Origin: Thermococcus camini
GTDB taxonomy: Archaea > Methanobacteriota_B > Thermococci > Thermococcales > Thermococcaceae
Assembly: GCF_904067545.1 (NCBI RefSeq)
Contig: NZ_LR881183.1
Span: forward strand, 248,001 to 312,000
Direction: 5' to 3'
Length of the DNA: 64,000 bases
Shown here piece by piece: positions 3,598 to 34,870 of the stretch. The notes beneath the pieces were generated by a model. The model saw nothing but the letters and a program-made list of their open reading frames with translations, made no database searches and was not told the origin of the DNA. Every line of letters begins with the position of its first letter. Position 1 is the first letter of the stretch. The position numbers were made by a program, and so were the translations under genes.

Positions 3598-4806
3598 ATG
3601 AAAAAAAAGTACTTGATGCTTTTATTTTTACCTTCTATCCTTATACTTGCATTGTGGCCTGTCAGCACACCTACACCTAACACGGAGCATTATGAGGGAT
3701 ACACTCTCATAGCCTATCCCTTCTCGAAGATCGATGACGTTGAGGTATCTCCCGGCGGTATAATTGTGCGTTCGGGCGGAAGTACATACCTAATAAGAAG
3801 AGGGTATGTTAAGGGGTATCGCACTGGACACGAGAAAATACTCGGAAACGTTGGGGATTATCTAGTAACCTATTTGAATTACAAAGTCCATCTAAAGCGC
3901 TCCAATGGCATCATACTAAACGATAAATGGTCCAAATCGGTGAAGTTGGGCAGTTCCGTGGCCGTAGGGAATGATTTTGTTGTTACTGCAGAACATGATG
4001 ACAGGGATCTCAAAGTTGATGTCCTCTTTTACTTCCCCGAGAACGGTGAAACCAAAAAATACTCCTTCAAGAGCGATCGGAGGGGTACGACTCCCAGGGT
4101 GGTGGCGGCCGGCGAATATGCAGTTGTCAGTGTACCCTACACCTGGAGGCTCTACTACTTCAAAGGGGGCGAACTCCTTTGGCAAGGCTCTCTTCCGGTG
4201 GAGTGTGGTTACGAGGAGTATCCGGTTTTCTCGCTTCACATTGAAGAAAACGGGGCCGGCTATGTCATCTCAAGCGAGGGCAAAGCGTTCGTGTACTTTA
4301 ATGAGAGCGGTTTTAGAAGCGTGGAAATTAACGAGAGATACTGCCTGCGATTTTCTGATGAGGAGAAGAATATAACGGTGATAAACACGGTGGAAGTTTT
4401 TAATGGTTGTTTTGCTGCCCTTGTATTGTACAGGAGTCTGGAGGGGGGTCTGTACTTTTACAACGCGAGCAACGTGCATCACATTGAAAACTACACGTTC
4501 AAAGCTGGGCCTACTTTTAATTTTGTGGTCTCCTCAAAGTACCTCTTAGCCATTTACAAGGATCATGTATCGATTTTTAACTGCAGCGGTGAAGTGATGA
4601 GGATTGATGGAAGGTACGATGAGGTGTATTCCCTGGACGAAGATTTCGTCTTGGTGAGCTATAACGGGAATGAGACCTCGTTTTACCTGCCCTTCGCGAA
4701 TAAAACCCTCAAGCTCGGCTCATTTAAGGTGGTTGGGTCTCATAACTGGGATATAGTTGGGGTAAGGGGAAGCGAGCTCGTTGTCATGAAGATAGAGAAT
4801 CCCTAA
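3598..4806 (+). CDS. Secreted beta-propeller-like protein of unknown function
   Basis: A 402-residue protein with an N-terminal hydrophobic signal (YLMLLFLPSILILALWPV) and a body of short beta-strand repeats separated by polar turns, suggestive of a beta-propeller (for example GNVGDYLVTY, GNDFVVTAEH, GEYAVVSVPY and the last blade WDIVGVRGSELVVM at about 40-50-residue spacing). No family is recognised. Two adjacent ATGs exist at 3595 and 3598; GGTGAGG at 3587-3593 is better spaced from 3598. It is probably co-transcribed with the preceding secreted-protein gene. The 5' part is AT-rich; the middle approaches the composition of the surrounding genome. A lipoprotein at 53694-54815 has the same general build. 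Confidence 0.72.
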   Translation: MKKKYLMLLFLPSILILALWPVSTPTPNTEHYEGYTLIAYPFSKIDDVEVSPGGIIVRSGGSTYLIRRGYVKGYRTGHEKILGNVGDYLVTYLNYKVHLKRSNGIILNDKWSKSVKLGSSVAVGNDFVVTAEHDDRDLKVDVLFYFPENGETKKYSFKSDRRGTTPRVVAAGEYAVVSVPYTWRLYYFKGGELLWQGSLPVECGYEEYPVFSLHIEENGAGYVISSEGKAFVYFNESGFRSVEINERYCLRFSDEEKNITVINTVEVFNGCFAALVLYRSLEGGLYFYNASNVHHIENYTFKAGPTFNFVVSSKYLLAIYKDHVSIFNCSGEVMRIDGRYDEVYSLDEDFVLVSYNGNETSFYLPFANKTLKLGSFKVVGSHNWDIVGVRGSELVVMKIENP

Positions 4807-4865
4807 TCTTCGCTGTCACTAAGAAACGCTGGGTGATTTTTGTTTGCCATTTTTCTGTCAAAATA

Positions 4866-4878
4866 AACCTTAAAAACA
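4866..4878 (+). promoter_or_regulatory. TATA-like promoter for purL
   Basis: AACCTTAAAAACA lies about 50 bases before the purL ATG, giving a predicted start near 4898 and a short leader that carries GGAGGG. This implies that purL and the second purP are transcribed separately from purD-purQ. Confidence 0.5.
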
Positions 4879-4920
4879 AAACTTTTTTACACTAATTCGT
4901 CAATTAATGGAGGGTTCACG

Positions 4921-8054
<3,134 letters not shown>

Positions 8055-27557: not shown

Positions 27558-28580
27558 TCAGTTGGCCCCTTTCCCTTCTCCTGGCAGGGGTTTCCTGTAC
27601 TCGTATGACACCCCATCGTCGATTATTGCGTAGACTTCCTCGTCTCCCTCTATGTAGTGCAGGATAGGTTTGTCTATGAGCTCAAAGGTTGTCTCCAGGT
27701 CTTTGGGGGTCTTAAGCTCAACGACCTTCTCAACGGGGCCTGGAGCTCCTTTAACCACGTAGGGCCTTATCTTTGACAGCTCGTCCTTTGGAGCCCTTGA
27801 TGTGTAAACGTAGCCGAGCAGGGGTATCAGCATCAGGAGTGCCAGTACCGTGGTGACGGTCTGGGCCGTTCCAAGGTCGCTTGTTATGCCAAGAACGCTT
27901 GCATCCTTCTCCGTCCTTACCGTCTCGGTGAGCGCTCTCTTCTCTGCCTTGCTGGTGTCCGTGAAGTAGTAAAGCTCTGCCGTTGAGTCCCTAACGAGTT
28001 CGATGGTGTGGTCGAAGTTCTCCCTTATCTCCCTGCCGCCGACGCTTCCGGTGCCCGTCACTGTGGTCTCAATGGTTATCCTGTTCTTCAGCCTCTTCAC
28101 ACCGAGTTCGCTGGAGATCCTTTTGCTCGTGTTCTCGAAGCTCTTCATGTCCAGAACGTACTCCGCGCTGAATCTGCCGTCCGTCAGGTTTCCACTCTCA
28201 TCGAAGAGCGGTTCCTCCCAGAGGACGATCTCCTCGCTGCCTTTGTTCACGTAGTACTCGGCCTTCACGGCGATGTGGTACGACCCCTCGTTCAGGGGCG
28301 GTTGCGACCTGTATGTGTACGTCAGCAGGAACCTATCCACCAGGGGTATCGGGTAGTTATCCATTGTCAATCTGTACCCGTAGAGATCGTTGGGTTCGAG
28401 GTATGCCTCGTGTTTCAGCGTTCCCTCTTCCCGGTACGTCCCTATCTTATGCGTGGTGACCATGTACGGGCTTGCGCTCATGAGCTTCACGGAATAAAAC
28501 CCGAAAACTATGAAGAGCACCAGGAATATCCCCAGCACTTCCTTCCTTCTGATAAATTTTGTAATGCCTTCTTTATTCAT
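27558..28580 (-). CDS. DUF5305 family membrane-anchored protein
   Basis: A 340-residue protein of the archaeal DUF5305 type. An N-terminal membrane helix (VLGIFLVLFIVFGFYSVKL, about 14-32) is followed by a long extracellular beta-rich region (about 40-230; ITIETTVTGTGSVGGREI), a second membrane helix (TVTTVLALLMLIPLLGYVY, about 240-262) and a cytoplasmic tail of about 75 residues. Its ATG overlaps the stop of the preceding gene by four bases. DUF5305 genes commonly lie beside archaeal signal peptidase genes, which fits here. Likely role: membrane anchor or assembly factor for the surface proteins of this locus (inference). Confidence 0.82.
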   Translation of the reverse strand: MNKEGITKFIRRKEVLGIFLVLFIVFGFYSVKLMSASPYMVTTHKIGTYREEGTLKHEAYLEPNDLYGYRLTMDNYPIPLVDRFLLTYTYRSQPPLNEGSYHIAVKAEYYVNKGSEEIVLWEEPLFDESGNLTDGRFSAEYVLDMKSFENTSKRISSELGVKRLKNRITIETTVTGTGSVGGREIRENFDHTIELVRDSTAELYYFTDTSKAEKRALTETVRTEKDASVLGITSDLGTAQTVTTVLALLMLIPLLGYVYTSRAPKDELSKIRPYVVKGAPGPVEKVVELKTPKDLETTFELIDKPILHYIEGDEEVYAIIDDGVSYEYRKPLPGEGKGAN

Positions 28581-29953
28581 CCTTCACATGCCTCCGTGCA
28601 ACAGTCAGATTCGATTTCAGTGTCTTCGTAGACGTCCGGTGCCTCCGGAGCGTCCCTGCCGGCGTGGCAGCCGCACGCGTAGACGTAAACGTACTTGGCG
28701 CAGCCATGACATTCACATCCTGCAACGCAGGGGGTGCTGACCAGCATAACGTACCTGTGTGAGCTTGTGTAGATTCCGTCCGTGTGTTCGTAGAGGTTGA
28801 GTCTGGCGACCTCGTTGTGGGCCAGGTGGAGTGTCCAGGTAACGCGCGTCCTCCCGTCCTCCATGACCTCAGTGGAAACCGTCCCCTTTGTCGGTATGTT
28901 GTTCACCAGGGTGAACTGGGAACCAACGTACTGGGTCACGACCAGGTCCCTCTCGTCGCCCCCGTTTTTCACTACGGTTCTTGTGTTGTAATCCGCGGCA
29001 GTGTCCCGGGGTAGGTGCTTAACCCCGCTGATCCAGCGGTTCATTATGCACAGGTCGCAGTCTCCTCCCCCATCACAGGTTGCGTGGACGGTTATGCTCT
29101 CACTTGTGATGCCGTATTCCACCAGCTCGGCCCCTTCGTTCAGGATGTAGTCCCCGCAGGACGTGAACTCCTGCTTGCCCGCAGGGTTGAGTTTGGTGTA
29201 TATCGTCACGTTCATGTGGGCGCTCTCACCCGCCCCGAGGTGAACCTCCCAGGTGATGTGATGCGCCGCCCCGGTCTGTGTTACCGTGTACGTTCCAGCG
29301 CTCGGGTCTATGGACTCAATCTCGAACTCCCCCGGAATCACGTCCTTTATCGTAAGCGTCTGCTCCTCTCCTGGGTTCGTCACGGTGATTCTGAACGTCC
29401 ACTCCGCGTATGTGTGCGTTGGAAGCTCAAGCGGTCCGCTCAGGAGCTCCTTCTCTATGGTGGGTCCTCCATTGATGATCAGCTTTATCGGGCAGGTGGA
29501 TATCGATGCATCCCCGCCGTTCCATGTTGCGTACATCTCAACCGGGATTATGTACTCACCCGGTTCCGCGTTCCCCACGGTCACGTTTCCGAAGAACGTG
29601 TATTCCTCCTCGGACGCAAGGGTTCTCACCGCACCGTCCTCCGTCTCTATGAACATCGTGACCCCCGCTGGAAGCCCCGAGTAGTCGGGATGGAGCGTGA
29701 TAGTGACGTCCTTCATGTCGTTGAGGTAGTTTCTAACGGTCAGTGCGTCGAAGTCAAGCTCCGAATTGGTGTTGACCTCAATGACCGCGGCATAGCCGTC
29801 TTCGCAGTCGAAGCCGAGATACTCCTGTTCGTGCGGTACCACCTGGACTTTTACCTCCCTGGTGGCGCCGAAGCTTACGAAAGTCCCGCTCGAGCTGACG
29901 ATAACCAGTGACGCTAGTGCGATTGTTATCAGTACTGCAATGGTCCCTCTCAT
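28577..29953 (-). CDS. Secreted TasA-like/DUF11-like protein with cysteine-rich C-terminus
   Basis: A 458-residue exported protein. The N-terminus IALASLVIVSSSGTFVSFG followed by REVKVQVVPHEQEYLGFD matches the processing region and first strand of the three DUF1102 proteins upstream, so it is probably cut by the same signal peptidase. Middle: two or three Ig-like/DUF11 beta-sandwich domains (WTFRITVTNPGEEQTLTI; HITWEVHLGAGESAHMNVTI; RVTWTLHLAHNEVARLNL). The last 70 residues hold many cysteines (PCVAGCECHGCAKYVYVYAC, ESDCCTEACEG), which could form disulfides or bind metal. Four-base overlaps link it to the signal peptidase gene before and the DUF5305 gene after. Confidence 0.78.
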   Translation of the reverse strand: MRGTIAVLITIALASLVIVSSSGTFVSFGATREVKVQVVPHEQEYLGFDCEDGYAAVIEVNTNSELDFDALTVRNYLNDMKDVTITLHPDYSGLPAGVTMFIETEDGAVRTLASEEEYTFFGNVTVGNAEPGEYIIPVEMYATWNGGDASISTCPIKLIINGGPTIEKELLSGPLELPTHTYAEWTFRITVTNPGEEQTLTIKDVIPGEFEIESIDPSAGTYTVTQTGAAHHITWEVHLGAGESAHMNVTIYTKLNPAGKQEFTSCGDYILNEGAELVEYGITSESITVHATCDGGGDCDLCIMNRWISGVKHLPRDTAADYNTRTVVKNGGDERDLVVTQYVGSQFTLVNNIPTKGTVSTEVMEDGRTRVTWTLHLAHNEVARLNLYEHTDGIYTSSHRYVMLVSTPCVAGCECHGCAKYVYVYACGCHAGRDAPEAPDVYEDTEIESDCCTEACEG

Positions 29954-31014
29954 ACCTTAAACACCTCCGGTATTCCCCTGTGTTTGGAATGCCTCCTCCT
30001 TCTGATTCTAACCACGTCTTCGTTCCCTATCCCCGAGAGTACGTACATCGCTCCGAGGAAAGCCGAAATGACTGCAAGGATCGCCAGCAGGGGTACCATC
30101 GGGTGTACCCGGTAGAGGGTGTCCATCACTGAGTCGGGAAGTACAGGGGGGTACGCATTAACCTTGACCTTGGTGGAGTACACCGACGTTTTCTGTGGCG
30201 CCAATATGGTGATGGTAAAGTCCTCTTCTCCGCCCCTGGATAGGCCGAACTCCTCGCTTGAGACTCCGGTTACGGGCTCTTGGACTGAGACGTAGTACCT
30301 CATCGGGTACAGGTTGTTGTTCTTCACCGTAATTTCGGTCTGGAACTCTTCCCCTGGCTGGTACCAGCCCTCCCTTGCCCCGCCGGCGGACGTTACCGAG
30401 TACTCTATAGGTATTACTTCCCAGGAGACGAAGATTGAGATGGCCACCATCAACAGCAGGAATGCGGAGGCAAGCATGAAGAGCGTTCTGAACTTCAGGG
30501 TGAAAAACCGCTTTCTTTTTCCTCCTCTCACCGCTTCACTGCTCCCGAAGGCCAGTATCCCGACGACTATCAGGATGGCCCCGAGGAGTATCTTGCCCCT
30601 GTCCGAGAGGCCGCTCTCGATGTAGTTGCCGACCTTCGGCACGGTTATCACGTGGCCGCCTGGCGCTATTACAGTCCCTCCAATCTGATCTTTCTTTATT
30701 GGGGGTATGTTGTGGCTCTGCTGGTCGCTGGCCACGTTGTTATCGCCCCTAGTTATGTACCCGTCTTCGGTTATCGCGACCACCCTGTGGACGGTCCACG
30801 TGCTCCCTACCTTGAACACTATGACGTCCCCGACGTCGGGGTTTCTCGCTAGGGGGTTGATGAAGAACAGGTCGCCCTTATCTATGGTGGGCGTCATGCT
30901 CCCCGAGTAAGCGTAGGACATGAAAACCGGCCTGTCAAGAAGGGCTCCTGCGAGAGAACCTATGACCAGCACTCCGAGAACCGCGAGGACCGCGTACTCC
31001 ACGAGGGTATTCAT
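29950..31014 (-). CDS. Signal peptidase I, SipW/ER type, with extra extracellular domain
   Basis: A 354-residue membrane signal peptidase. The catalytic Ser is in MSYAYSGSMTPTIDKGD, and the general base is a His (TWTVHRVVAI) rather than Lys, with Asp residues in TRGDNNVASD, which is the ER/SipW-type centre. This catalytic part ends near residue 125. Beyond it are a membrane helix (ILLGAILIVVGILAFG), another (FMLASAFLLLMVAISIFV), an extracellular beta domain (about 205-305) and a final helix (LLAILAVISAFLGAMYV). Its position among DUF1102 proteins parallels bacterial sipW-tasA loci, so it is likely dedicated to them. ATG overlaps the preceding stop by four bases. Confidence 0.88.
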   Translation of the reverse strand: MNTLVEYAVLAVLGVLVIGSLAGALLDRPVFMSYAYSGSMTPTIDKGDLFFINPLARNPDVGDVIVFKVGSTWTVHRVVAITEDGYITRGDNNVASDQQSHNIPPIKKDQIGGTVIAPGGHVITVPKVGNYIESGLSDRGKILLGAILIVVGILAFGSSEAVRGGKRKRFFTLKFRTLFMLASAFLLLMVAISIFVSWEVIPIEYSVTSAGGAREGWYQPGEEFQTEITVKNNNLYPMRYYVSVQEPVTGVSSEEFGLSRGGEEDFTITILAPQKTSVYSTKVKVNAYPPVLPDSVMDTLYRVHPMVPLLAILAVISAFLGAMYVLSGIGNEDVVRIRRRRHSKHRGIPEVFKV

Positions 31015-31520
31015 CCGCAGCTTCCTCCCCAGGCCTCTATTGTTATTTCACTCAAGTAATCCCCGAGCTGAAGCCCGGTGGTGTTCACCATCATGCCTAT
31101 CTCGGCGCTCTCTTCCGCCCCGAGGGTGACCTCAATGACGTCCGCCCAGCTTCCGCCGAACGCGCCCTCAAAGAACCCCAGGTTCGAGGAGTCCGAGCTT
31201 ACCCTCACGCATATTGTATCGTAACCTGTCTCGCTCTGGTTGTTCTCTATTATGAATACCCCATCAAAAACGTAAGTACTGTTAACGCTCAGTCCCTCTC
31301 CATCGCCCGGATAGAACGGGCTGTCAGGGGATATATCAACGACAAGAACACCGTTATCCAGGTATGAATACGGGGGGGCGGGGGAATCCAAAGAGAACTC
31401 TTCCCCATCTGGGGTTGCGTAAACTACCGTAATCGGGCCGGAGGAATGGAGTCCCCCGACTCCTATGAGCAGAATTACCATGATTCCAATGCCTGCAATG
31501 ACTTCTGTTTTTGTTCCCAT
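31011..31520 (-). CDS. DUF1102 family secreted protein (TasA/camelysin-like)
   Basis: A 169-residue exported protein, third DUF1102 paralogue of the locus. N-terminal hydrophobic segment VIAGIGIMVILLIGVGG, then a beta-sandwich with the shared motifs PPYSYLDNGVLVVDIS, LSVNSTYVFDGVF and NTTGLQLGDY. It ends in an acidic/Gly-rich AWGGSCG with one Cys. It is more diverged than the two upstream paralogues and lies beyond a hairpin/T-tract, so it is probably a minor subunit made together with the signal peptidase, whose ATG overlaps its stop. Confidence 0.82.
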   Translation of the reverse strand: MGTKTEVIAGIGIMVILLIGVGGLHSSGPITVVYATPDGEEFSLDSPAPPYSYLDNGVLVVDISPDSPFYPGDGEGLSVNSTYVFDGVFIIENNQSETGYDTICVRVSSDSSNLGFFEGAFGGSWADVIEVTLGAEESAEIGMMVNTTGLQLGDYLSEITIEAWGGSCG

Positions 31521-31541
31521 CTCTCTTCCCCCTCGAAGAAT

Positions 31542-31564
31542 CTAAAAAGGGGAGCAAACGCTCC
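31542..31564 (-). terminator. Hairpin plus T-tract between DUF1102 genes (partial terminator or processing site)
   Basis: On the minus strand a perfect GGAGC-GTTT-GCTCC stem-loop (31551-31564) is followed directly by CCTTTTTAG. It lies in the 68-base gap after the second DUF1102 gene. It could end most transcripts or protect the 3' end of the two upstream genes, giving more of those proteins than of the downstream minor subunit and peptidase. Confidence 0.55.
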
Positions 31565-31588
31565 ATAATGAAATGTCTACCCGTCTAA

Positions 31589-32125
31589 TCAGCTCTGGCA
31601 CTCACCGGCAACGGCGTAGAACTGAATCTGGCCGTCCAGTGAGTCGGGTGCGCTGATTCCGGTGGTGTTGATGATCATACCGATCGTGACAACATCGCCG
31701 GGCATTATGGTAACAAACAGGTGGTCGCTGCCAACGGTCTGGCCGGGCATGTAGTCGCCCTCAAAGAACGTAACCTCGTCGCCACCGCTGTAGGTGATCT
31801 CCATACATATCGGGGTCTGCTCCCAGAGGTCGTTGCTCACGCCGAAGACTTCCTCAAAGACGTAGGTGCTGTTCGGGCTGACGCCCTCTCCAAAGCCCTC
31901 TTCCCAGTTGGGGTTGTTGTGGCTGAGGTCTATGACGAGCATCCCGTTGTCGGTTATGTACGCGTAGGGCTGGATCGGCCTGAGGTCAATGAGCTCGTTG
32001 TCGTCGGGGACGATCTGAATGTGAACGTTCCTGTCCGCCTCAAAGTAGGCGAAGTTTGCGCTGCTCGCGGTTACTGCTATTAGCAATCCTGCTATAAGGA
32101 CGAAGAGTCCGATTATCTTTTTCAT
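31589..32125 (-). CDS. DUF1102 family secreted protein (TasA/camelysin-like)
   Basis: A 178-residue exported protein. Signal region MKKIIGLFVLIAGLLIAVTA is followed by SSANFAYFEADRN, close to the SipW-type G/A-x-x-AYF-S/D pattern. The mature beta-sandwich has VHIQIVPDDNELIDLRPIQP, PYAYITDNGMLVIDLSHNNP, GVSPNSTYVFEEVFGVSN and VTIGMIINTTGI. Strongly similar to the upstream paralogue. ATG 32125 is chosen over GTG 32134 because GAGGTGATC precedes it properly. By analogy with TasA and archaeal bundling pili, it may polymerise into surface fibres. Confidence 0.86.
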   Translation of the reverse strand: MKKIIGLFVLIAGLLIAVTASSANFAYFEADRNVHIQIVPDDNELIDLRPIQPYAYITDNGMLVIDLSHNNPNWEEGFGEGVSPNSTYVFEEVFGVSNDLWEQTPICMEITYSGGDEVTFFEGDYMPGQTVGSDHLFVTIMPGDVVTIGMIINTTGISAPDSLDGQIQFYAVAGECQS

Positions 32126-32130
32126 TTTGA

Positions 32131-32766
32131 TCACCTCGCGCCTCCGCAGTCAATGGGTGCGTCGTCAGCCGGCCAGGCTTTGATGGTCACGGTCACGTCG
32201 TAGTCTCCCAGGCTGTTTCCAGCCGCAAGCTCCATGCCAACACCGAGGGCCTCTCCGGGCTCAAGGTAAAAGCAGACGTCTCCGGCCGCTGTGTCCGAGT
32301 TGTACGGGATAGCGTTGCCGTTGGTTATGTACATGTTCTCACCGGGGTCGTAGAATGAGACCTTGCCGGGATCCGAGGAGATTACCTCGACGACTATAAC
32401 CTTGTTCTCCCAGAGGTGGTTGCTCACGTTGAAAACGTGGTCGAAGTTGTACCTGCTCTGCGGGCTCAGGCCAATTCCCCTGCCTGTGTATCCCTCGAGC
32501 TCCCCCTGGTACTCAGCCCAGTCCGGGTTGTCGTGTCCGGGCCAGTTCGGGTTGTTCTCAGAGAAGTCAATAACAAGTTGCCCCCCATCGTTGATGTACG
32601 CGTAGGGCTGGACGGGCGTCAGGTCGATGAGCTCTGTGTCGTCGGGAACGACGGCAATGTGTGAGCTCCTCTGGACGCGGTAGTCCCTGAAGGTCGCGCT
32701 CGTACCCAAAGCAAAGGCCGCCGCGATCATCAGCCCCAGCATACCGAGGGCCAAAATTTTCTTCAT
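32131..32766 (-). CDS. DUF1102 family secreted protein (TasA/camelysin-like), first of three
   Basis: A 211-residue exported protein with signal MKKILALGMLGLMIAAAFAL followed by GTSATFRDYRVQRSS, a SipW-like processing region. The mature part has AVVPDDTELIDLTPVQPY, AYINDGGQLVIDFSENNPNW, a longer insert with EGYTGRGIGLSPQSRYNFDH, and an end with YDVTVTIKAWPAD and one Cys. ATG 32766 follows GGGAGGAAAACACC; the longer frame to 32901 covers the promoter. The next DUF1102 gene begins five bases after its stop, so the two are co-translated. Likely a major subunit because it is first and has its own promoter. Confidence 0.87.
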   Translation of the reverse strand: MKKILALGMLGLMIAAAFALGTSATFRDYRVQRSSHIAVVPDDTELIDLTPVQPYAYINDGGQLVIDFSENNPNWPGHDNPDWAEYQGELEGYTGRGIGLSPQSRYNFDHVFNVSNHLWENKVIVVEVISSDPGKVSFYDPGENMYITNGNAIPYNSDTAAGDVCFYLEPGEALGVGMELAAGNSLGDYDVTVTIKAWPADDAPIDCGGAR

Positions 32767-32859
32767 GGTGTTTTCCTCCCAAATATCAAATTGGCATCCC
32801 TCGGCACCGTCACTTGGCGGCACGTCACCGAGACACTTGTACCTTATTAGGACGCTTCT

Positions 32860-32872
32860 GCTATATAGTAAA
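32860..32872 (-). promoter_or_regulatory. TATA box for the DUF1102 genes
   Basis: ATTTACTATATAG on the minus strand predicts a start near 32840 and a leader of about 75 bases, longer than usual here. Two inverted repeats lie just upstream (32889-32923), in a position suited to an operator. Confidence 0.65.
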
Positions 32873-32888
32873 TTCCGGATTACTGCGT

Positions 32889-32923
32889 GGTAATGCCCCA
32901 TTACCTGAAGCAGAACCGCTTCA
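32889..32923. repeat. Two adjacent inverted repeats upstream of the DUF1102 promoter
   Basis: GGTAATG-CCC-CATTACC (32889-32905) is a perfect 7-base inverted repeat, followed at once by TGAAGC-AGAACC-GCTTCA (32906-32923). They lie about 20-50 bases upstream of the TATA box of the fibre-protein genes and after the terminator of the regulator genes. This is a plausible operator for the two winged-helix proteins encoded next door. Confidence 0.6.
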
Positions 32924-32932
32924 ACTGATTAG

Positions 32933-32958
32933 AAAAACCCAATTAGAGCCTTATTGGG
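32933..32958 (-). terminator. Hairpin and T-tract terminator after the regulator genes
   Basis: On the minus strand CCCAAT-AAGGCTCTA-ATTGGG can pair and is followed by TTTTT (32933-32937), directly after the stop at 32959. It separates the regulator transcript from the DUF1102 promoter. Confidence 0.6.
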
Positions 32959-33393
32959 CTAGATCAGCCTGCTGATCTTTCTATGGTGCACCACACTTAT
33001 GACCAGGTACACGATGGCCGCGAGGAGCAGGGGCGGGTTCCCCAGATACCAGCCTGCAGCTATGAATATCAGCGAGGTGCCCATATAGAAGGCGCTCCAG
33101 CTGATGTCGTGCTTGTTCACGACCTCCATGTAAACGGTAACATCGTCCGGTATCTTCAGGAGCGTAACGACGCCGTGATTGAAGGTTACGACGCCCTCCC
33201 TCTCAAGTTTGGGGATGTGCGTCTGCATCAGGCTGACGTACACGCTTTTCCTGTGTTTTCGGTCGGTGTCACCTTCCATCTCGGCTATGTACTCGACTAT
33301 GTCCCTGAGCTCCGCCCGCCCATCGCTCTTCTGAAGGAACTCCACCATGAGCATCCTTCTATCGTTGCCAAGTATTGCAGTCGTTGCACCCAT
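32959..33393 (-). CDS. Membrane-associated winged-helix regulator (DUF7344-like)
   Basis: A 144-residue protein. The first 85 residues form a winged helix of the DUF7344 type known from archaeal regulators (AILGNDRRMLMVEFLQKSDG, RAELRDIVEYIAEMEGD, HIPKLEREGVVTFNHG). The last 50 form two membrane helices (WSAFYMGTSLIFIAAGWYLG, LLLAAIVYLVISVV), so it could sense membrane or surface state while bound to DNA. It follows the small winged-helix gene by four bases and lies directly upstream of the DUF1102 operon on the same strand. Likely regulator of that operon (inference). Confidence 0.8.
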   Translation of the reverse strand: MGATTAILGNDRRMLMVEFLQKSDGRAELRDIVEYIAEMEGDTDRKHRKSVYVSLMQTHIPKLEREGVVTFNHGVVTLLKIPDDVTVYMEVVNKHDISWSAFYMGTSLIFIAAGWYLGNPPLLLAAIVYLVISVVHHRKISRLI

Positions 33394-33397
33394 GATA

Positions 33398-33613
33398 TCA
33401 CCGCAAGCGATAATGTTTGCGCTTATTTCCGTTGGTATAAAATGCCTCCACCTTCCTTTGCTGAATCATCCTTCTTAGGGTTCTTTCAACCTTCTGTCTG
33501 GTGCATTCTAACCCCATCTCGTTGAGGAACCTCGTCAGAAACGCGACGCTCAATGAGCCGTGTACTCTGAGCAGGTTTGTGATTTCACTTTCCAAACTGA
33601 TGGTGCTGTCCAT
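33398..33613 (-). CDS. Small winged-helix DNA-binding protein
   Basis: A 71-residue single-domain winged-helix protein: ESEITNLLRVHGSLSVAFLT and FLNEMGLECTRQKVERTLRR (recognition helix) then KVEAFYTNGNKRKHYRLR (wing). ATG 33613 is preceded by GAGGTGAGGGC. It forms a two-gene operon with the membrane-bound regulator four bases downstream. Target unknown; the fibre-protein promoter next door is the obvious candidate. Confidence 0.78.
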   Translation of the reverse strand: MDSTISLESEITNLLRVHGSLSVAFLTRFLNEMGLECTRQKVERTLRRMIQQRKVEAFYTNGNKRKHYRLR

Positions 33614-33672
33614 GCCCTCACCTCCATGTTAGGCAATCCGTGTGTAACATCACTTTAGAAGTCCACGGCATA

Positions 33673-33684
33673 CTATTTAAAAGT
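33673..33684 (-). promoter_or_regulatory. TATA box for the regulator operon
   Basis: ACTTTTAAATAG on the minus strand, about 60-70 bases before ATG 33613, predicts a start near 33653. Confidence 0.55.
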
Positions 33685-33692
33685 TCCTAAAA

Positions 33693-34019: not shown

Positions 34020-34095
34020 TGGTAGCCCCGCGGGGATTCGAACCCCGGTCAAGGGATCCAGAGTCCCCTATGCTTGGCCGCTACACCACGGGGCT
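34020..34095 (-). tRNA. tRNA-Gln (CUG)
   Basis: On the minus strand the acceptor arms AGCCCCG and CGGGGCT pair fully, followed by A and an encoded CCA. The T-arm is CGGGG-TTCGAAT-CCCCG. The anticodon loop CTCTGGA gives anticodon CUG within the GGGGA/TCCCT stem. No intron. A TATA element (GGATTTATAAATT, about 34122-34134) lies at the expected distance upstream. Confidence 0.94.
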
Positions 34096-34792: not shown

Positions 34793-34870
34793 TGGTGGGG
34801 CCGCCGAGATTCGAACTCGGGTCCCCGGCTCCCGAAGCCGGAAGGATAGGCCAAGCTACCCCACGGCCCC
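34793..34870 (-). tRNA. tRNA-Pro (CGG)
   Basis: On the minus strand GGGGCCG pairs with CGGCCCC, followed by A and an encoded CCA. The anticodon stem CCGGC/GCCGG encloses loop TTCGGGA, giving anticodon CGG. The T-arm is CCGAG-TTCGAAT-CTCGG. No intron. The TATA element at 34900-34909 lies upstream. Confidence 0.94.

Follow-up and report, generated by a model that had tools for sequence, protein, structure and literature searches.

A probable donor-strand fimbria operon with its own signal peptidase in Thermococcus camini, and the exchange of its two alleles

Introduction

What is built at the cell surface by an operon of Thermococcus camini which joins three DUF1102 proteins with a signal peptidase, and why does it occur in two widely different forms at a single chromosomal site? 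The module comprises eight genes at positions 27558-33613 of the window, that is, the whole 64,000-nt stretch of DNA analysed here (assembly GCF_904067545.1, contig NZ_LR881183.1, 248,001-312,000 of the forward strand), to which all coordinates refer. Arranged head to tail on the minus strand, the genes are transcribed in the order HTH71, DUF7344, DUF1102-A, DUF1102-B, DUF1102-C, signal peptidase I, the Cys-rich protein X and DUF5305 (Table 1). An initial annotation, made from the sequence alone, had described a TasA/AbpA-like fibre locus. In the present analysis, a SipW-type donor-strand fimbria operon, related to the haloarchaeal Taf loci and AbpA-like in fold, is the most likely reading (probability about 80%), owing to the AbpA fold match of a subunit and to the full-length alignment of the peptidase with that of a Taf locus. 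Fibres of this kind are already known, both as SipW-type donor-strand fibres and from the Taf loci; the surprising part is the exchange of complete cassettes. This exchange, together with an operator, an intercistronic hairpin and the odd nature of DUF1102-C, goes beyond what had been noticed initially.

Subunits, donor motif and fold

The SipW-like processing region which had been attributed to all three DUF1102 proteins is present in only two of them. Directly after the signal peptide, the motif [AGS]xFxx[YF]x[ASV]xR was found in 95/95 A, 96/97 B and 66/88 X proteins; it occurs in none of 38 C proteins, nor in the five control families PPA, RPB7, SPase (signal peptidase), DUF7344 and DUF5305. 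Within the module, the processing/donor motif is confined to A, B and X, as anticipated for the Cys-rich protein, which had been said to share the N-terminal pattern. DUF1102-C begins with a different, PIPVVYA-like strand, and its assignment as a plain third major subunit was dropped on the count given above. Since its domain is present and the donor motif absent, C could receive a donor strand without being able to provide one, and may be a terminal or anchor subunit. A and B are proposed to be the major fimbrial subunits.

For mature B, AlphaFold (AF2) predicts an all-beta structure with a mean predicted local distance difference test (pLDDT) score of 84, in which residues 1-7, corresponding to the motif, are unstructured. 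When this model was compared by Foldseek with the PDB (350,542 chains), the sole match at E<=1e-3 was the AbpA pilus of Pyrobaculum calidifontis (7ueg; E 6.8e-5, probability 1.00). Self-complemented FimA came next, FimG was also among the donor-strand pilins ranked high, and the Sulfolobus thread 7pnb stood at rank 31 (E 0.085). TasA, in contrast, was outside the top 50, and no camelysin/Peptidase_M73 Pfam match was obtained for A, B or C at E<=1. The AbpA match supports the initial proposal of a TasA/AbpA-like fibre locus; the structure prediction suggested as a check for a TasA-like jelly roll yielded an all-beta subunit with a free N-terminus and donor-strand pilins, though not TasA, at the top of the ranking. 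Sequence searches of the PDB with B, X and a DUF1102 profile gave no relatives.

Protein X contains 15 Cys and is modelled as a signal helix (2-21), a disordered region bearing the donor motif (24-35) and three immunoglobulin (Ig)-like domains, whose Foldseek matches include integrin leg domains, PrgB and BspA adhesin domains; across loci its length ranges from 119 to 481 aa. A second operon of one Archaeoglobi genome (G131; locus L159, 4112-9400) contains three DUF1102 genes, a DUF11 protein and a SipW-like peptidase, and its fourth gene encodes a signal peptide, the motif ATFTEYTAKR, DUF1102, a Pro/Thr-rich linker and a von Willebrand factor A (VWA) domain, so that this operon resembles one for a fimbria tipped by a VWA adhesin. 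This fusion, taken with the Ig array of X and its adhesin-like matches, suggests that the fibre carries at its donor end an adhesin, namely the last subunit with the motif. X is accordingly proposed as the tip/adhesin subunit.

The signal peptidase

In an alignment of 30 homologues of the operon peptidase, S39, H76, D91 and D97 are invariant, the S39/H76 pair indicating the Ser/His type of enzyme known from SipW and the endoplasmic reticulum (ER). Hydropathy places an Ig-like C-terminal ectodomain (~200-295) between additional transmembrane segments. The gene lies inside the operon in every complete locus read, and since the T. camini genome encodes two other signal peptidases I, this enzyme need not serve general export. 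In one locus (L050 of genome G073, 4272-5338), the peptidase gene is read as two overlapping open reading frames (ORFs; 147 + 228 aa), as a result of a frameshift, a sequencing error or inactivation. Outside the window, a short signal peptidase I-like gene of 189 aa was also recorded (G000:C1:1902068-1902469; L148, L158).

Relation to known fibre systems

The closest known candidates are the haloarchaeal Taf loci (TafA NF052520, TafC NF052521, TafE NF052522, TafF NF052523), which are fimbrial by annotation. The operon peptidase aligns with the one of a Taf locus over 336 columns, ectodomain included (hhalign probability 99.9, E 1.3e-32), and that haloarchaeal locus also encodes TafA, TafC, TafE, TafF and, beside the subunits, DUF7344; Taf subunits have the same GxFxxxxAxR N-terminal motif. 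Moreover, a plasmid of Haloferax larsenii groups the peptidase with a LamG protein, small hypothetical proteins, DUF5305 and a helix-turn-helix (HTH) protein, and all named plasmid matches for TafE and for the operon peptidase come from haloarchaea. There are differences as well: the DUF1102 subunits stay under every Taf cut-off, the module of the T. camini type is a strict single operon with alleles exchanged en bloc, and X carries DUF11/Ig domains where haloarchaea have LamG instead. A literature search on TafA, fimbria and archaea gave nothing relevant.

The bundling pili of Pyrobaculum share the fold with DUF1102-B, but no sequence similarity to AbpA is detectable. In the case of TasA and camelysin (tapA-sipW-tasA, sipW-calY), the likeness consists in an operon which pairs a dedicated Ser/His signal peptidase with fibre subunits, and in a mature N-terminus opening with a small residue/Phe/hydrophobic strand (PMC9674648). 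In TasA, N-terminal residues 28-38 (A28, F29 ... I32) are the donor strand (PMC9674648), F29 and I32 being spaced as the F and Y of the motif. Unlike in the TasA/SipW systems, the peptidase has an added ectodomain and the subunits do not match the camelysin family. Crenarchaeal threads (Saci_0406, 7pnb) are also donor-strand fibres of beta-sandwich subunits cleaved by signal peptidase I (PMC9715654), the passages on the thread cluster reporting no dedicated peptidase gene or definite assembly protein; their fold match with DUF1102-B is weaker.

Several observations weigh against a donor-strand fimbria. The AbpA match has a low global template modelling (TM) score of 0.38 and a root-mean-square deviation of 9.9 A, and a profile of 63 DUF1102 proteins finds neither any AbpA chain (E<=10) nor TasA by sequence. 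For these two reasons shared architecture is claimed here, not proven homology; a low TM-score would be expected if the donor strand were differently placed in the model, or from divergence. The Taf cut-offs were missed by a wide distance (TafA 15.9/190, TafE 16.7/155, TafF 12.7/420 bits), the X proteins of several Archaeoglobi are without the motif, and a literature search for 'DUF1102' gave no paper, no fibre report for these proteins being found in the literature searched. The peptidase described initially as dedicated and SipW-type does belong to the Ser/His type and keeps its place in the operon, but fails the cut-off of the SipW equivalog NF046067 (35.7 vs 190 bits).

Two other products were considered for the operon. 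A and B might be S-layer-associated or secreted matrix proteins, processed by the peptidase and either monomeric or forming a coat of which X and DUF5305 would be the surface glycoproteins. DUF1102 and Ig arrays would also suit a coat, the filament is a prediction from the genes, and camelysin-type proteins of B. cereus were initially described as surface proteins. Nevertheless, donor-strand pilins (AbpA, FimA, FimG, thread), not S-layer proteins, head the fold search, the motif stands exactly at the predicted mature N-terminus, as in TasA, and the related loci of haloarchaea bear a fimbrial annotation, all of which makes a coat improbable. That the operon makes a type IV pilus-like appendage and uses an unusual peptidase for it hardly deserves belief: no appendage is commoner in archaea than such pili, and X shows a weak match to UpsA (13 bits), but genes for an ATPase, a platform or a PibD-type peptidase are missing from the module, and its subunits, judging from the model of B, are all-beta and have no pilin helix at the N-terminus, so that this reading was already contradicted by gene content and fold.

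A donor-strand fimbria would be assembled as follows. A and B would be exported as precursors and cleaved by the Ser/His peptidase of the operon ahead of the xFxx[YF]xAxR motif, upon which the freed N-terminal segment would complete the beta-sandwich of the following subunit with its missing strand, and a thin fibre would result. X, with the same N-terminal strand and its extra Ig domains, would cap the donor end as a tip adhesin, while C, having the fold without the donor motif, would end or anchor the opposite one. DUF5305, proposed as an assembly/anchor partner, could form a membrane platform together with the peptidase ectodomain. If this is true, the Thermococcales, widely used as hyperthermophile models, would possess a near-universal fimbria of non-type-IV nature with a dedicated protease, and the AbpA, TasA and haloarchaeal Taf fibres would be joined in one scheme of motif, peptidase with ectodomain, and DUF5305.

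Two exchanged alleles at one site

On a tree of the structural genes, 42 Thermococcus loci fall into exactly two clades, whose stems measure 1.2 and 1.55 changes per site, and both alleles occupy one site, between the conserved regulators and ppa-rpoE'. The window and L046, a type-II locus of genome G022, show DNA identities of 82% (5') and 93.4% (3') in the flanks of the cassette; at the protein level, PPA and RPB7 are 97-99% and the regulators ~90% identical, against 32-47% for the structural proteins. L127 and L129 resemble L046 in this pattern. On a tree of the ppa and rpoE' flanks, made of two genes and with allele groups named after the identity table was seen, 9 type switches were counted, at least 5 of them forced by supported branches and 8-10 being recovered in bootstraps. 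A single clade is rejected on this tree (approximately unbiased (AU) test, p 1.7e-5; log-likelihood 284 lower).

The breakpoints give independent support. Between L107 and L127, the 5' DNA is 92.9% identical until 97 bp beyond the DUF7344 stop, ~5 kb are then unalignable except for short pieces of 71-80%, and 94.7% identity resumes 128 bp ahead of the DUF5305 stop. Three other pairs, one of them joining two near-complete genomes (the window and G022), have nearly the same breakpoints, and a same-type control pair is 92.6% identical throughout. The alignments place the common ends of both alleles in the promoter and in the DUF5305 tail (last ~140 bp). Moreover, the Archaeoglobi do not form one clade on the cassette tree, two Archaeoglobus metagenome-assembled genomes nesting within the type-I Thermococcales (AU p 5e-6). 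Exchange thus seems also to have crossed between Thermococcales and Archaeoglobi, a conclusion drawn from tree position and to be taken with caution, as some of these genomes are such assemblies.

On balance, we are inclined to regard the site as a fimbrial 'serotype' locus, where Thermococcus species trade whole cassettes belonging to two ancient lineages, as would Thermococcales with Archaeoglobi. Homologous recombination would take place in the conserved promoter and in the tail of DUF5305, with viruses or cell-cell recognition as the selective force. The VARTIG modules, at another locus of the Thermococcales, set a precedent, their surface Ig proteins being diversified in situ by recombination between species (PMC8416519); other genes and another site are concerned there, and a C-terminal Ig domain varies, whereas here the complete fimbrial cassette is replaced. 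Alternatively, the alleles could be ancient paralogous operons, both ancestral and differentially lost rather than exchanged, as would agree with the depth of both clades and with the presence of both types in Thermococcales and Archaeoglobi. This is judged unlikely, given that both alleles share the site, a homologous promoter and the DUF5305 tail between flanks 92-95% identical in the best pair, that in no searched Thermococcus genome do the DUF1102 matches exceed what a single locus would account for, and that the flank tree calls for repeated switches. With breakpoints within ~100 bp, the exchanged cassettes would make it possible to ask, in a clean system, why entire surface fibres are replaced in archaea.

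Control elements

Upstream of A lies a candidate operator with the consensus GGTAAY-N5-RTTACC. Its palindrome, GGTAATGGGGCATTACC, has one exact match in the whole 2.02-Mb genome, at this site, and is present in strict form in 56/95 loci; in an order-wide scan, ~49 genomes had the site at this operon and ~20 sites lay elsewhere, the level of a reversed-pattern control. The g3 loci retain it without HTH71, and DUF7344 is for this reason the likelier binder. DUF7344, with HTH71 where present, would then control one promoter through this palindrome. Scans for sigma-70 promoters were set aside as uninformative for an archaeon. In the type-II locus L046 (4991-5524), ~400 bp of additional DNA lie between DUF7344 and the operator.

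Right after B, separating A and B from the downstream genes, a hairpin of the type GGNGC-NTTT-GCNCC was found in 75/95 loci, against 25/1900 shuffles; other gene junctions carry this type in 1-8%. Its stems covary (GGGGC/GCCCC, GGAGC/GCTCC). The hairpin may set the stoichiometry, holding A and B in excess of the downstream genes, whose products would be required in smaller amounts.

Table 1. Features of the probable fimbrial module in window coordinates
Feature	Position	Strand	Remarks
TATA-like element, candidate promoter of the regulator pair	33669..33686	-	read from sequence
HTH71, 71-aa helix-turn-helix-like regulator	33398..33613	-	first of the regulator pair
DUF7344 winged-helix regulator, 144 aa	32959..33393	-	PF24035 67 bits
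Terminator-like hairpin and T-run, CCCAAT...ATTGGGTTTTT	32933..32958	-	directly 3' of the regulator pair; read from sequence
Candidate palindromic operator GGTAATGGGGCATTACC, then GTAA half site	32889..32905	.	alignment of both alleles
BRE (transcription factor B recognition element)/TATA element AATTTACTATATA, structural operon	32862..32874	-	kept in both allele types
DUF1102-A	32131..32766	-	PF06510 132.3 bits; signal peptide, then SATFRDYRVQR; motif 95/95
DUF1102-B	31589..32134	-	PF06510 145.5 bits; signal peptide, then SANFAYFEADR; AbpA fold match
Intercistronic hairpin GGAGC-GTTT-GCTCC, T-rich tail	31551..31564	-	after B
DUF1102-C, divergent subunit	31011..31520	-	PF06510 105.2 bits; donor/processing motif absent
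SipW/ER-type signal peptidase I	29950..31014	-	TIGR02228 61.5 bits (cut-off 51.85)
Cys-rich protein X, 458 aa	28577..29953	-	AF2 pLDDT 85.9; DUF11 30.2 bits
DUF5305 membrane protein, large ectodomain	27558..28580	-	PF17231 44.1 bits (cut-off 29)
Exchanged allelic cassette	27701..32846	-	unalignable or < ~75% DNA identity vs type-II allele of L046

Gene identities, conservation and neighbourhood

The genes named in the initial annotation were all confirmed, with their strand and positions, by profile scores for DUF1102, DUF5305, DUF7344 and the peptidase, the three DUF1102 proteins passing the PF06510 gathering cut-off of 22.2 bits. The start of DUF1102-A is the ATG at 32766, a longer ORF start at 32901 falling in the promoter region. 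Of the two winged-helix regulators expected, DUF7344 is one, but HTH71 is without a significant match to any Pfam or NCBIfam family and is missing from some loci, such as all g3 loci examined. The C-terminal segment 117-135 of DUF7344 is hydrophobic by hydropathy, and this regulator is probably membrane-bound. DUF5305 has hydrophobic segments at 9-27 and 241-259. Several gene junctions of the module are ATGA overlaps, and downstream of DUF5305 follow ppa (pyrophosphatase) and the gene of an RPB7-like RNA polymerase subunit (rpoE').

DUF1102 is present in 87/94 Thermococcales genomes (72/74 of the good ones) and also in Archaeoglobi, with weak matches in a group of 3-4 Mb genomes of the same phylum as the Archaeoglobi, which includes loci with fimbrial 'Taf' families. 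Besides the window, 59 Thermococcales loci and 36 more, 13 of them from Archaeoglobi, were read, and the order A-B-(C)-peptidase-X-DUF5305 is kept in all complete loci of both groups, so that the module is not a product of chance. The operon cannot be considered a speciality of Thermococcales, since Archaeoglobi share it and haloarchaeal Taf loci use a homologous peptidase. No relatives were found by a search among viral contigs, which gives no sign of a viral element.

In locus L069 (3655-9372), ~5 kb of additional DNA lie between DUF7344 and DUF1102-A, so that the regulators are set apart from the structural genes. In the window, the regulators are closely preceded, on the same strand, by tRNA-Gln (34020-34095) and tRNA-Pro (34793-34870), a possible landmark for integration or recombination.

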